Assembly (NCBI GenBank): GCA_031260345.1
Contig: JAIRKA010000105.1
Coordinates: 1 to 38,822, forward strand
Direction of reading: 5' to 3'
Length of the DNA stretch: 38,822 bases
DNA from: Methanosarcinales archaeon
Lineage (GTDB): Archaea; Halobacteriota; Methanosarcinia; Methanosarcinales; Methanosarcinaceae
Position numbers and translations under genes: made by a program. The notes under the pieces were generated by a model. That model did no database searches. It saw nothing but the letters and a program-made list of their open reading frames with translations, and was not told where the DNA came from. Positions 14,852 through 20,560 of the stretch are shown one piece after another (positions within the stretch are counted from its first letter, which is position 1; each line of letters starts with the position of its first letter).

Positions 14852-15772
14852 ATGAGAATGGAAAATGTCAAAGAATTCATAACAGCGGAAATTGAAAAGA
14901 TCAAAAATCAAGTTAATGGGACTGCCCTTATTGCACTTTCCGGCGGCGTTGACAGCTCCGTCTGCGCCGAACTCGCCTACCGCGCAATCGGTGACAGGCT
15001 TCTTCCAATCTTTATCGACACCGGTTTTATGAGAAAGGATGAGCCCGAACAAGTCAAAGCTGCATTTTCTCATATGAATGTCAAAATTATTGATGCGAGC
15101 GATCGTTTTTTTGAAGCCGTCAAAGGACTTGAAGATCCCGAACTCAAAAGAAAAGCCGTCGGCGAAACATTCATCCGCGTTTTTGAAGAGGAAGCCAAGA
15201 AAATCAATGCCGATTACCTGATTCAGGGAACGATTTATCCCGATGTCCTGGAATCCGAAAAAGGGATCAAAGCTCACCACAATGTCGGCGGCATGCCTGA
15301 AAAAACGGAGTTCAAAGGCGTTATCGAGCCGCTTTACTATTTGTATAAAGACGATGTGAGAGCGGTCGGACGCGAGCTCGGCCTTGCCGTCGCGCTCTCC
15401 GAGAGAATGCCGTTTCCCGGCCCCGGATTATCCCTCCGCGCCTGCGGAGAAGCGACACGCGAAAAAGTCGCTGCCGCTCGCGAAGCTAATGCAATTGTCG
15501 AAGAAGAAGTCATGGAAGCGCTTAAGCCCTGGCAGGCACTTGCAGCCGTCATCGGAAAAGGGACAGGCAAAAAAGATGATAAGCGCATTTACGGCTGGAT
15601 TATCGCAATCCGACTCGTCAGCTCCGACAACGCAATGACCGCAGAGCCTTTGGAAGTTCCGTATGACATATTGAAAAGAATTCAGGAAAGAATCACAACG
15701 GAAATTCCGGATGCCTGCCGTGTTGTTTACGATGTGACGCCAAAGCCGCCGGGAACGATTGAATTCGAGTAA
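14852..15772 (+). CDS. guaAB: GMP synthase subunit B (ATP pyrophosphatase)
   Basis: The 306-residue product is the synthetase half of a split archaeal GMP synthase; the glutamine amidotransferase is a separate protein. The PP-loop SGGVDSS lies near residues 29-35. [11 protein letters not shown] and the C-terminal [13 protein letters not shown], which is the conserved end of GuaA, are present. It adenylates XMP and aminates it to GMP. ATG is six bases after TAGGAG. The upstream 200 bases are very AT-rich, with no gene I trust. It is convergent with nrdD. Confidence 0.95.
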
Positions 15773-15989
15773 ATTTAAAAAATAAAAAAGGAAGAAGTGA
15801 AAAGAGATTTTTGGTGGCTTCTTTTCGCTCGTTTTTATTAGGCCTCCTTTTTAAAGAGACCGATTTCTTTTCATTCGTTTTTGGGCTTCGTTTTTGATAG
15901 ACTTCCTAATTTTTGAGGAGGTCGATTAGAAAAGAAAAGTGAAATTCCTTGGAGCTTTGTAACGATTGACAACTCCCGGAAAATTGCTG
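15773..15989. terminator. T-rich convergent 3' region
   Basis: Several oligo-T tracts (near 15811, 15832, 15850, 15878 and 15892) occur within repeated TTCGTTTTT units. In archaea, runs of T are sufficient terminators, so this gap probably ends guaAB transcription. Confidence 0.4.
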
Positions 15990-16016
15990 TTTGACCGCTC
16001 CTTCGGACCGGTCAAA
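15990..16016. repeat. Palindromic repeat P, copy 3, overlapping the nrdD stop
   Basis: TTTGACCG (15990-15997) pairs with CGGTCAAA (16009-16016). The TGA stop codon of nrdD (16014-16012, minus strand) lies inside one arm. A tail with TTCCTTGGAGCTTTG at about 15945 resembles the sequence beside copy 4. Confidence 0.7.
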
Positions 16017-18321
16017 CTTTCAAATTATTCGGATCGGCTCTTGTCCTGTCCACAAGCTCCTGCCGCTTTCCTGCATTCCAGCCGTCAACGGACTGCAGAT
16101 AACCCGTAATTCTGGACAAGTGGTCAATGTTTTCGGAGCCGCATTTCGGACAACTGTCTTTGATGCCGGAGGTGACATAGCCTTCATCTTTGCAGATCGT
16201 TATGTCGCGCGTAAACGCGAAATATCCGGTCGCCGTGTTCTTTGCGATGTGCATCGCCATTTCCTGCAAGCCGTCGGGGTCAGGCGTTCCTTCGCCGAGC
16301 CAGATATGGAGAATGTTTCCGCCGTCAACGATCGGGAAGAACGTTTGTTCGTAATTGATTCTTTCAATGACGGAAATGTCTGCGCCCGGCGGAATGTGCG
16401 TTCCGTTGGTGTAGTAAACCGGCAGGTCTTTCGTTGTTCCGAGTTCCTTTTTCGTCAGCTCAACATCGCCGTTCATATTGTTTTCAGCCTTGCCGGCATA
16501 TTCGGGGTGGAGCAGGTCAGACACTGCAAATCTCTGAGCGGTTGTCTCGGCAGGCGTTCGAGCAAGAGCAATTTCAATGCCGTTTTCCTGCGACAGCCTC
16601 TGAGCGTGCAGCTTCATTTCGTACATGATGCGAATCGCGAACTTGAAAGAATCCGGAGATTCGTACATGGATTTTCCGGTGTGGTACTGAACCATTTCGT
16701 TGATTCCGACAACGCCGATTGTGTAAACAAGCGCGGCAAAGTCAACGGCAATCGCGCCTTTTTCGCCCGTGTTCGGATCCCTTGGAGTCATTGCCGCAAA
16801 TGGAATTCTGTTGGATGCCAAAAGGTGATCCATCCACTTTTTCTTCACGCGGAAAACCTCAACGGATTTGTTCATGAGATATTTGAGCTCATCAATCAAT
16901 TTCTGATCGTCGTGGTCGGCTTTGTAGGCGGCGCGCGGGCAGTTCAAGGACATAACCATCCAGGAGCCCATTGAGAAGTGCTTTCCGTCTTTGAAGTAAA
17001 GCTTGTCATCGAAGTCGGCATCGTCTTCCGGATTTGCGGAGAATTGTTAAGCACAGCACTGGTAGCAGCTGATGCCTTCACCTGCGCCGCGGTATTCCGG
17101 AATCTGGTTGTCGAAATACGGCGTTCCGAATTTGGCGGCCAATTCAAAGGTTAAGCGGTAGAGTTCTTTATAAGTCAAAACATCCGGGTTGGCGGCGTTG
17201 AACGCGGCGTCTTCGTCCATGAAATCCGGCTCGATTGAAATTTCCGGCTTCGGGAAGGAAAACGGCTTGCCCCAGTCATCGCCTTTGAGCATGACGACCA
17301 TCAAAGCGCGGAATCCTTTCCTGACTTCCTTTTCAAGATCGCCGTAAACCCACTTTCTCGTGCCGTTGGTGCCGTCCCAAACTTTACCCATCGCAACGAC
17401 GGGCTTGTCTTTCCAAAGCTTCGGAACGCCCGGAGAAAGCTGAACGGATGAGAAAACGGTCTGGCCGCCGCGGGCGCACATCATCTGCATCATTTCGTAA
17501 ACGAACATCTGCATGAGCTGCTCAAGCTCTTTGTCTGTTTTGTCAACAAAATACGGCGCGAGGAAGGTGAGGAAATTATAGAAGCCCTGGCCACCGGCAA
17601 AGTTTGTCTGAGCGGAGCCCATGACTTTAACGGCGTGAAGAATCGCAACTTCCGCTTTCATGGCGGGGCCTGCAACGCTTGACTGGACGCCGACACCGTC
17701 GGGCATCAAGCCGTAATAGAAGAAATATCTGAGATCCCAGTCCTGACAGAACGGGCGCGTTCCAAAGTATTCCAAGTCGTGAATGTGGAAGTCGCCGTTT
17801 AGGTGAAGGTCGGCCAGATTTCCGGGCATCAAAAGAAGATTCTGTTCCTTAGACATCTTGTCCGCTTTCTTCTTGTGAGATGTTTCGGCGTTGTCTAACT
17901 GGTTGGCGTTGTCGTGGGATTCGAATCCGAGACCTGTGTCAATTTCGCAGGCGTCATAAACGGATGCGCCGACTCTTGTCATCACGTTACGCCATTCGGG
18001 GTGACCGCGTTCCAAAAGGATGCAGTTGACGATTTCACGAACCAAGGGGCCTGAAAGAAATTCAACGCCCATTTTTCGGATGCGTGTTTCGGCTTCTTTT
18101 GAAATTTCGATGGCCTCTTCTTTGGTAATTCCTGGAACGCCGTAAAAGCGCTCCGCGAGCGGCGTTTCTTTCATCAGCTGGCGGACAATTTCGTTTCTGT
18201 TCCAATCCATCATGTAGCCGTTGGTCGTTCTGACCTTCGGCATGGTCGGAACGGTGCCGCCGTCAAGCGTCTGCTGGACTCGGCCTTTTCCTTCTGTATT
18301 TTTGCTGAATTGTGTTGACAT
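16012..18321 (-). pseudogene. nrdD: Anaerobic ribonucleoside-triphosphate reductase, interrupted by one in-frame UAA
   Basis: The frame runs 769 codons plus the final stop and is intact except for TAA at 17049-17047. The upstream part (424 codons) holds an ATP-cone domain (about residues 27-120) and ends in the cysteine motif GEGISCYQCCA. After the TAA the frame continues directly as QFSANPEDD...GKHFSMGSW to the glycyl-radical segment RITGYLQSVDGWNAGKRQEL. Class III RNR reduces NTPs to dNTPs without oxygen using a glycyl radical made by NrdG, which is not in this window. The zinc site appears as ICKDEGY...CPKC, one cysteine short of the usual CxxC pair. ATG follows GGTGA. It could be a recent nonsense mutation, a sequence error, or a gene needing readthrough. 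UAA ends many other genes here, so it is not globally reassigned. Confidence 0.85.
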
Positions 18322-18466
18322 GAGCCTTCACCGTGTGTATTATTTTTTGATTATATGAAATAATAATGAAGTATAAATGTAAATGATTGATAAACCGTAA
18401 TTAAACCGCGTGTAAGTCATGTGAAAGTAATCGATTCGAGATCGGTTCAAAATCCGATTTCATTTT

Positions 18467-18721
18467 TTATGCGATCAGTTTCGTAATCTGTTCTTCTTTG
18501 ACAGCGTTTCCTTCAAAGATCTCCCTGTATGTGAGGAATTTGCTGTCAATTTGGAGAACCGGGGCAACGTTTGTAAAAATGTTGTTGACAGCGAGTTCTG
18601 TGAGCGCTGCGGGCGTTGTCATGTCCGCTTCTTCGTATGCGATATTTCGGGACTCAAAAAATCCTTTTAAAATTTTACATTTCGGGCAGACATCCGTTGT
18701 ATAAATGATTACTTTTGACAA
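18467..18721 (-). CDS. nrdH: NrdH-like glutaredoxin
   Basis: About 84 residues with a thioredoxin/glutaredoxin fold and the redox motif CPKC in YTTDVCPKCKILKGFF. It also has VAPVLQID, which carries the cis-proline-like turn, and FLTYREIFEG. In Methanosarcina a redoxin of this kind passes electrons to the class III NrdD from a ferredoxin-dependent disulfide reductase. I prefer the TTG at 18721, since AGGTGAAAGG just upstream is the Shine-Dalgarno; the GTG at 18730 lies inside it. It precedes nrdD by 145 bases on the same strand, supporting a shared role in dNTP supply. Confidence 0.8.
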   Translation of the reverse strand: MSKVIIYTTDVCPKCKILKGFFESRNIAYEEADMTTPAALTELAVNNIFTNVAPVLQIDSKFLTYREIFEGNAVKEEQITKLIA

Positions 18722-18764
18722 ACCTTTCACCTGTTGCTGTTTATTTCTGTTAATTTTGCTGCTC

Positions 18765-18780
18765 TCTTTTATTTATAAAC
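18765..18780 (-). promoter_or_regulatory. TATA box for nrdH
   Basis: On the minus strand GTTTATAAATAAAAG lies about 40-50 bases upstream of the nrdH start. It is the best archaeal promoter match in this leader. Confidence 0.4.
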
Positions 18781-18832
18781 AAAAATATGCTGTTTACAAA
18801 TAAAAAAGACAAACAAACGTATTTTGTCCTCA

Positions 18833-18861
18833 TTTTCGACAGCGATTTAATGTGTCGAAAA
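18833..18861. promoter_or_regulatory. Nine-base-pair inverted repeat upstream of nrdH
   Basis: TTTTCGACA (18833-18841) and TGTCGAAAA (18853-18861) are perfectly complementary around 11 bases. It lies 110 bases upstream of nrdH, beyond the TATA box, where an activator could bind. Confidence 0.4.
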
Positions 18862-19250
18862 CATTCATCATTAATATTTTATTAAAATCCGATGATTAAA
18901 TGAGCGGAAACTTTGATGAAACTTAAATAACTGTTTTTTTGTTTAATAAACTTTTTACCACCATCTTTGGATACAAACAATGAAAACGAATGCAGTAAGC
19001 GCTCATAGTTTGAATACAAAGAAAAACAGCAGAATATAAATCTCTTGGAAATGATTTGGTAACATATTTGGTATAAAATTCTACAGCGTTCGAAAATTTC
19101 GAAAAAAATGAAAAATTGAAAGCCGAAGCGGCCAAACTAAAAAGAAAGTCAAAAAATCAAGAGATATCGAATTATAAAAAATTTTTAATAAAAACTTGAA
19201 ATTGAAAAGCAAAGTAAAATTAAGACAAAATTCAAAACCGAAAACAAAAC

Positions 19251-19325
19251 TCAAAACCAAACATTGATTTTTGTATCAGACTCATGAAACTCGAACGCCC
19301 GATAAAATCCTGAAATTTAATAATT
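19251..19325 (+). repeat. Dispersed repeat C, copy 1
   Basis: The segment contains AAAACCAAACAT at its start and CGAACGCCCGATAAAA (19287-19302) in the middle. Both recur in the same order and similar spacing, reverse-complemented, at about 28030-28105. Confidence 0.55.
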
Positions 19326-19365
19326 GAAGTTTTAAAAAATTTCGTTTACAGATCGGCCGCCTCTA

Positions 19366-19378
19366 TCGAGCCGCTCCG
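19366..19378 (-). repeat. Dispersed repeat A, degenerate copy 2
   Basis: TCGAGCCGCTCCG matches the core of repeat A in reverse orientation. The flanking CTCTCAAATAT resembles the flank of the copy at 23805. Confidence 0.45.
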
Positions 19379-19531
19379 TTTCTCTCTCAAATATCGAATA
19401 GAATGCTCTCTCTTTTTCAAATTTGAGGTCATCGTAAATGTTTTTATAGAACGGCACACATTTATTTGCCAAATCTCGTTATTTTACTATTTTTAAATCA
19501 ATTACGGTCATATGTTTTGGGAGGCTGAAGT

Positions 19532-20560
19532 ATGGGTGTTGCCATCGGCGATCTGCTGGAAAGGGATGAAATTTCCCGCTCGGATTTAAAAGGCAAAATC
19601 GTTGCGTTTGACGCGTATAATGTAATATATCAGTTTCTCACAACCGTACGCGGCCGCGACGGAAAGCCGCTCACGGATTTAAACGGCAACTTAACTTCTC
19701 ATCTCTCCGGCATTCTGTACCGAACGTCAAGCTTTGTTGAAGACGGCATTAAGCCCGTTTTTGTTTTTGACGGCATTCCGCCCGAATTAAAAGCCGAAAC
19801 GCTTGACAAACGCCGCGAAATTCGTGAAGCGGCGCATGAGAAATGGAAGCTTGCAATGGAGCTCGGCGATACGGCTGAAATATTAAAATATTCACAAGCC
19901 GCTGTTAAAATCGACCCGCAAGTCGTTGAAGAATCGAAAATGCTGCTTGCAATGCTGGGAATTCCGGTCGTTGTTGCGCCCTCAGAAGGTGAAGCACAGG
20001 CGTCTTACATGGCAGACAAGGGCGATGTTGATTTAGTTTCGTCTCAAGATTATGACGCTTTTATTTTCGGCGCCAAAGCCGTCATTCGCAATTTAACGGT
20101 GTCGGGAAAGCGCAAACTTCCCGGAAAAAGTGTTTATGTCGATGTTTTGCCCGAAAAAGTGGATTTGAATAAAAACTTGGAGCGTTTGGGAATGACAAAG
20201 GATCAATTTGTTGACCTCGCGCTTTGTGTCGGTACTGATTTTAACAAAGGGATTGACCGTGTTGGTGCAAAAACGGCGCTCAAACTCATTAAAGAATACG
20301 GCAGCTATGAAGGCGTTTTAAAGTCCAAAGGACTTGAAGACCAAATTGAACGCTATGCCGCAGCAAAAGAATTTTTCAAAAATCCGCCGACAACGGATGA
20401 CTATACAATTCAGTGGACGAAACCCGATAAAGAAAAAATGATTGAATTTCTATGTTCAAAACACGATTTTTCGGAAGAGCGCGTGACATCCGCTTGGCAG
20501 AAAATTAATGCTGCGTTTGAAACAAAAACCAAACAGCCGACTTTGGATCAGTGGTTCTGA
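19532..20560 (+). CDS. fen1: Flap endonuclease 1
   Basis: The 342-residue archaeal FEN-1/XPG-family nuclease removes 5' flaps during Okazaki fragment maturation and long-patch repair. The N-nuclease region begins MGVAIGDLL and holds FDAYN and FVFDGIPP. The I-nuclease region has PSEGEAQASYMADKGDVDLVSSQDYDAFIFGA split across residues about 148-180, with the metal-binding acidic residues. A helix-hairpin-helix follows (GTDFNKGIDRVGAKTALKLI). The C-terminal QPTLDQWF is a PIP box for the PCNA clamp. ATG follows GGGAGG at good spacing. A TATA-like TTTTTATAG lies at 19441. Confidence 0.96.
   Translation: MGVAIGDLLERDEISRSDLKGKIVAFDAYNVIYQFLTTVRGRDGKPLTDLNGNLTSHLSGILYRTSSFVEDGIKPVFVFDGIPPELKAETLDKRREIREAAHEKWKLAMELGDTAEILKYSQAAVKIDPQVVEESKMLLAMLGIPVVVAPSEGEAQASYMADKGDVDLVSSQDYDAFIFGAKAVIRNLTVSGKRKLPGKSVYVDVLPEKVDLNKNLERLGMTKDQFVDLALCVGTDFNKGIDRVGAKTALKLIKEYGSYEGVLKSKGLEDQIERYAAAKEFFKNPPTTDDYTIQWTKPDKEKMIEFLCSKHDFSEERVTSAWQKINAAFETKTKQPTLDQWF

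Follow-up and report, generated by a model that had tools for sequence, protein, structure and literature searches.

NrdD proteins (TIGR02487) of M. blatticola and other Methanosarcinaceae carry an SCYQCCA motif followed by Tyr, together with the glycyl-radical and zinc motifs; in M. blatticola, a redoxin gene lies upstream of nrdD. The gene described here shares all of these characters, including the length of the protein (94% identity); however, compared to M. blatticola it has a TAA at the place of the Tyr codon, and nrdG is located on a separate contig and not beside nrdD. Stop codons inside conserved frames are known in the Methanosarcinaceae from the decoding of UAG as pyrrolysine, and the genus studied here has tRNA-Pyl, but the codon at stake in nrdD is UAA and the ancestral residue is Tyr. 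Isolated nonsense calls also occur in draft and environmental assemblies, as consensus errors or minority alleles. Like the stop in this nrdD, these are single substitutions with the frame intact, no decay and intact relatives. Reductase frames divided into a 5' and a 3' piece are also on record, as in the functional nrdA-a/nrdA-b reductase of phage Aeh1 (PMC3653736); there, an inserted endonuclease gene makes two genes, whereas this nrdD has one stop, no insertion and no nearby start.

The window, i.e., the whole stretch of 38,822 nucleotides that was analysed, is one entire contig (contig 8) of a draft genome (1.59 Mb in 119 contigs; completeness 76%, contamination 1.45%). This contig count and completeness indicate a draft, whose source was probably a community or a single cell. 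The genome belongs to Methanimicrococcus, with congeners including M. blatticola DSM 13328, Ca. M. labiotermitis and Ca. M. odontotermitis. Members of this genus are insect-gut methanogens (PMC10684969) with reduced genomes and a nutrient-rich gut habitat (PMC11362671). Translation of the minus strand (18321..15991) yielded a single nrdD frame of 769 codons (18321..16012), devoid of frameshift, interrupted once and ended by its natural terminator, TGA (16012-16014). The original prediction had reported an in-frame TAA directly after SCYQCCA, and both its coordinates and its sequence were correct (Table 1). The earliest start codon past the TAA is the ATG of a 319-aa open reading frame (16971..16012), 25 codons downstream. 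The redoxin gene and nrdD are located between a GMP synthase gene and the flap endonuclease gene fen1 (window positions 14852-20560). The product of the redoxin gene reaches the curated cut-off of none of the redoxin subfamily models; it is predicted to be the probable electron donor of NrdD. The gene order around nrdD is different in M. blatticola (L033), where nrdG adjoins nrdD on the opposite strand.

Table 1. Coordinates of nrdD, its internal stop and the neighbouring redoxin gene in the window.
Feature	Position	Strand	Remarks
In-frame TAA, nrdD codon 425	17047..17049	minus	Tyr in relatives, TAT/TAC
nrdD 5' part, ATG start, 424 codons, ending ...GEGISCYQCCA	17050..18321	minus	94% identity to M. 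blatticola, residues 1-424
nrdD 3' part, same frame, 344 codons + TGA	16012..17046	minus	Zinc-site C724 and C727; glycyl-radical motif RITGYLQ (Gly740)
Small glutaredoxin/NrdH-like redoxin gene, intact, upstream of nrdD	18467..18730	minus	Same neighbour in M. blatticola

When read through the stop, the product matched TIGR02487 with 564.6 bits (cut-off 326.35) over residues 137-761, in one stretch spanning the stop, and aligned end-to-end with four full-length congeners at 90–94% identity. C724 and C727 are invariant among relatives, and the RITGYLQ motif with Gly740 is present, as in class III enzymes; the frame is not uninterrupted, as it contains the TAA at codon 425. The window protein departs from its relatives at none of 238 invariant columns. 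Compared to the four congeners, both halves of nrdD showed dN values of 0.03–0.07 for dS values of 0.7–1.25, dN of the 3' half being slightly raised for this genome in some, though not all, of the comparisons. Nothing points to decay of nrdD, and the earlier description of a continuous frame with two conserved halves, without frameshift or decay, therefore stands. Judged by its sequence, the window gene is NrdD by descent, and presumably encodes a functional class III (anaerobic) ribonucleotide reductase of ordinary archaeal type, from a gut methanogen of the genus Methanimicrococcus.

NrdD matches were found in 110 of the 112 genomes of the family (this one counted), and an internal stop was present in the window's genome alone (0 of the 109 others with matches). 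Codon 425 could be read in 82 homologous loci, some of which represent the same genome from two collections so that independent genomes number fewer than 82: it was TAT in 44 and TAC in 38. In two further alignments the site, disturbed by an intein, appeared as Ala; the sequence following the intein reads CCAYQF, i.e., Tyr. The Tyr that the original prediction gave for the homologues was thus found in every readable locus, and the alignment with the NrdD of relatives supports the proposed origin, TAT or TAC to TAA, a single third-position change.

The cysteine motif preceding the stop, SCYQCC, is invariant among relatives and corresponds by position to 328-SCCR-331 of T. maritima NrdD and to 288-MGCR-291 of T4. 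Both cysteines of the T. maritima motif are essential for activity (PMC4493059). It is therefore reasonable to place the thiyl-radical cysteine within SCYQCC, with C419, C422 and C423 as candidates: the suggestion that the stop follows the radical-cysteine motif agrees with this positional correspondence. Termination at the TAA gives a 424-aa product that ends right after SCYQCCA and has neither the zinc-site cysteines nor Gly740. As it lacks the glycyl-radical and zinc-site region, this truncated NrdD would be dead, as originally proposed.

A further possibility is that the two halves are made separately, by re-initiation, and assemble into a working NrdD like the phage split reductases. In addition to the Aeh1 precedent, the break falls in a low-confidence segment of the predicted structure, and the T. 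maritima enzyme is disordered after SCCR (PMC4493059). The model (mean pLDDT 58.7, residues 408-454 below 50) is too weak to judge split assembly. However, re-initiation at the next start, 25 codons on, would cost the invariant residues F427, D434, F437, K440, F443 and G446-S450, and no insertion or spacer separates the halves; we regard such a split enzyme as very doubtful.

The nrdD genes of several family members hold large in-frame insertions (L088, 6732-8095; L089, 7263-8626; L077; L081; L086). The insert of L088 and L089 is intein-like and falls exactly between residues Q421 and C422, within the active-site motif, three codons before the position of the TAA, whereas the other inserts are near residue 194. 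These two genes are thus interrupted in the same motif as the window gene, but the latter shows no intein or intein trace, only one base change. As the window gene and its full-length congeners are without intein, we took the proximity to be a coincidence.

We then considered how UAA is decoded in this genome. TAA terminates 571 of the 1009 open runs of 150 codons or more in the scanned genome and is the main terminator. Within the roughly two thirds of the genome that were scanned, we detected no tRNA having a UUA anticodon. The single aRF1 keeps its NIKS and YxCxxxF elements, and an altered release factor was accordingly rejected; likewise, the 100 nucleotides 3' of the stop fold no better than shuffled sequences (z = +1.1), and no recoding RNA structure was seen. 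Selenocysteine was excluded, the codon being TAA and not UGA, and homologues having Tyr and not Cys. Pyrrolysine does not explain the stop either, as had been noted: a tRNA-Pyl with a CUA anticodon is present, but the codon is not UAG. These data provide no support for programmed UAA readthrough. A reassignment of UAA to an amino acid throughout the genome might be suspected, since in-frame TAG codons in several genes show that the genus is not strictly standard for stops; the use of TAA as main terminator, the finding of a single internal TAA across the 151 genes aligned and the lack of a UAA-reading tRNA in the part scanned render it hardly credible. Readthrough confined to nrdD, by a near-cognate tRNA, a modified stop codon or a tRNA suppressor, would give full-length NrdD at a lower level, possibly with a regulatory role. 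It would fit the purifying selection on both halves, a gene that should be essential and the stop-codon decoding known in the genus for UAG. Nevertheless, in addition to the tRNA, release factor and structure results, no relative has a stop at codon 425 and there is hence no conserved recoding, so that we consider it improbable. Its strongest form, in which the TAA is real and fixed and an archaeon already reading UAG as pyrrolysine makes its sole reductase by UAA readthrough in the active-site loop, is more improbable still.

Whether the population could live without NrdD depends on the other routes to deoxynucleotides. A search for a second nrdD or for another class of ribonucleotide reductase, as suggested by the original prediction, returned none in this genome or elsewhere in the genus. 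Each of the six genomes of the genus has one nrdD gene (PF13597), which in G004 is split over two contig pieces, and none has a class I/II reductase (PF02867) at 57–93% completeness. The absence of a second reductase from all six makes it improbable that the genus has one which simply escaped detection. The activase gene nrdG is located on contig 7 (41418-42086), scores above the TIGR02495 cut-off and has no internal stop. For salvage, no thymidine kinase was found and no deoxynucleoside kinase match exceeded the cut-off; the single weak deoxynucleoside kinase match was rejected, as by its own sequence it reads as a thymidylate kinase. With no other reductase, no thymidine kinase and a kinase match that is a thymidylate kinase, a population-wide nrdD null should be lethal.

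These observations bear on a real and recent nonsense mutation, with survival through uptake of deoxynucleosides or through a reductase whose gene lies outside the assembled sequence. In its favour, the given sequence shows a clean TAA at this codon, a second system could be missing from a genome that is 76% complete, no decay would be expected so soon after a very recent mutation, and some comparisons give a slightly raised dN for the 3' half in this genome; in addition, the genus lives in nutrient-rich guts with reduced genomes (PMC11362671). However, no alternative reductase is present in the six genomes of the genus, no thymidine kinase and no deoxynucleoside kinase above the cut-off was detected, nrdG and the redoxin gene are intact and dN/dS is low. 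We therefore keep inactivation as a rival, albeit an unlikely one.

A stop-codon census covered ∼1.1 Mb of this genome (about two thirds) and 0.39 Mb of M. blatticola. Alignment of 151 genes to M. blatticola, spanning 45,873 codons, revealed no frameshift and two internal stops judged real, namely the TAA of nrdD and a TAG in the gene of a B12-binding radical SAM protein. We interpreted the remaining starred rows as ends of genes, starts that were misaligned or open reading frames on the antisense strand. A chance pair of open reading frames was ruled out for nrdD, whose stop is the sole genuine internal TAA or TGA among these genes. Likewise, an ab initio scan of the 1.1 Mb, judged by eye, gave no further convincing internal TAA or TGA. 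Given the codon usage of this genome, a single TAA or TGA among 294,120 codons is what a substitution rate of about 4e-5 per base would yield. Our search found no literature on premature-stop rates in metagenome-assembled genomes; in our own judgement, ∼4e-5 errors per base is plausible for a short-read draft.

Among the three options initially offered (sequence error, inactivation and readthrough), an error is thus favoured, here widened to include a minor allele, whereas readthrough is without support. We think it probable that the TAA is a base-level consensus error or the allele of a minor strain, because nrdD is the sole reductase found, shows no decay and is intact in relatives, and because there was no sign of machinery for UAA readthrough. 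In this scheme, a single-base deviation at the Tyr codon would have entered the draft consensus by a sequencing or assembly error, or the allele of a minority strain or molecule would have been carried into it, an equally simple source. The living population would then most likely make full-length NrdD, which NrdG would activate and which the redoxin encoded upstream would probably reduce. We infer that reads would not show TAA as the dominant allele. Against the error reading, the assembly is clean: the 151 aligned genes contain neither a frameshift nor a further internal TAA or TGA, so that errors are not frequent and the TAA of nrdD would be one of few. Its location in an essential gene is unexceptional, although chance cannot be proven. 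The finding is most likely not new biology, and shows that a lone stop codon within an essential gene has to be backed by reads when the genome is a draft. If the TAA were real and fixed, either an essential enzyme would be made by UAA readthrough or de novo deoxynucleotide synthesis would have been lost, and both outcomes would be striking.

TAG behaves differently in this genome. The genus decodes UAG as pyrrolysine, and in-frame TAG codons are present in several methylamine methyltransferase frames (families named from sequence). Long frames are also broken by TAG at a higher frequency than in the scanned part of M. blatticola (22 of 695 versus 2 of 252 runs of 200 codons or more). Unlike TAA, it probably serves as a sense codon in the gut clade beyond the known methylamine genes. 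In a radical SAM protein gene (L168:12816-13892, minus strand, contig C71; homologues L226-L230 and L236), codon 157 is TAG in all six genomes of Methanimicrococcus, and homologues in another genus of the family (G026 and G027) have one inner TAG in both genomes. Almost all other Methanosarcinaceae searched are without inner stop in this gene, and one of them, G011 (L236), has Lys at codon 157. This looks like a conserved replacement of Lys by pyrrolysine outside the methylamine methyltransferases. The in-frame TAG of the B12-binding radical SAM gene (L113:8828, plus strand, contig C16; TIGR04013, 448 bits when read through), where M. blatticola has Gln, may also be a sense codon. A purK frame (L158:2471-3625, minus strand, contig C61) contains three inner TAG codons and matches TIGR01161 with 396.6 bits when read through; as the other Methanimicrococcus genomes have no close homologue, it was either horizontally acquired or lies on a contaminating contig from an archaeon using TAG as a sense codon. 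Further frames with inner TAG codons were found at L151:2672 (plus strand, aminopeptidase N-like), L117:17499 (minus), L162:11343 (minus) and L173:3635-7432 (minus).
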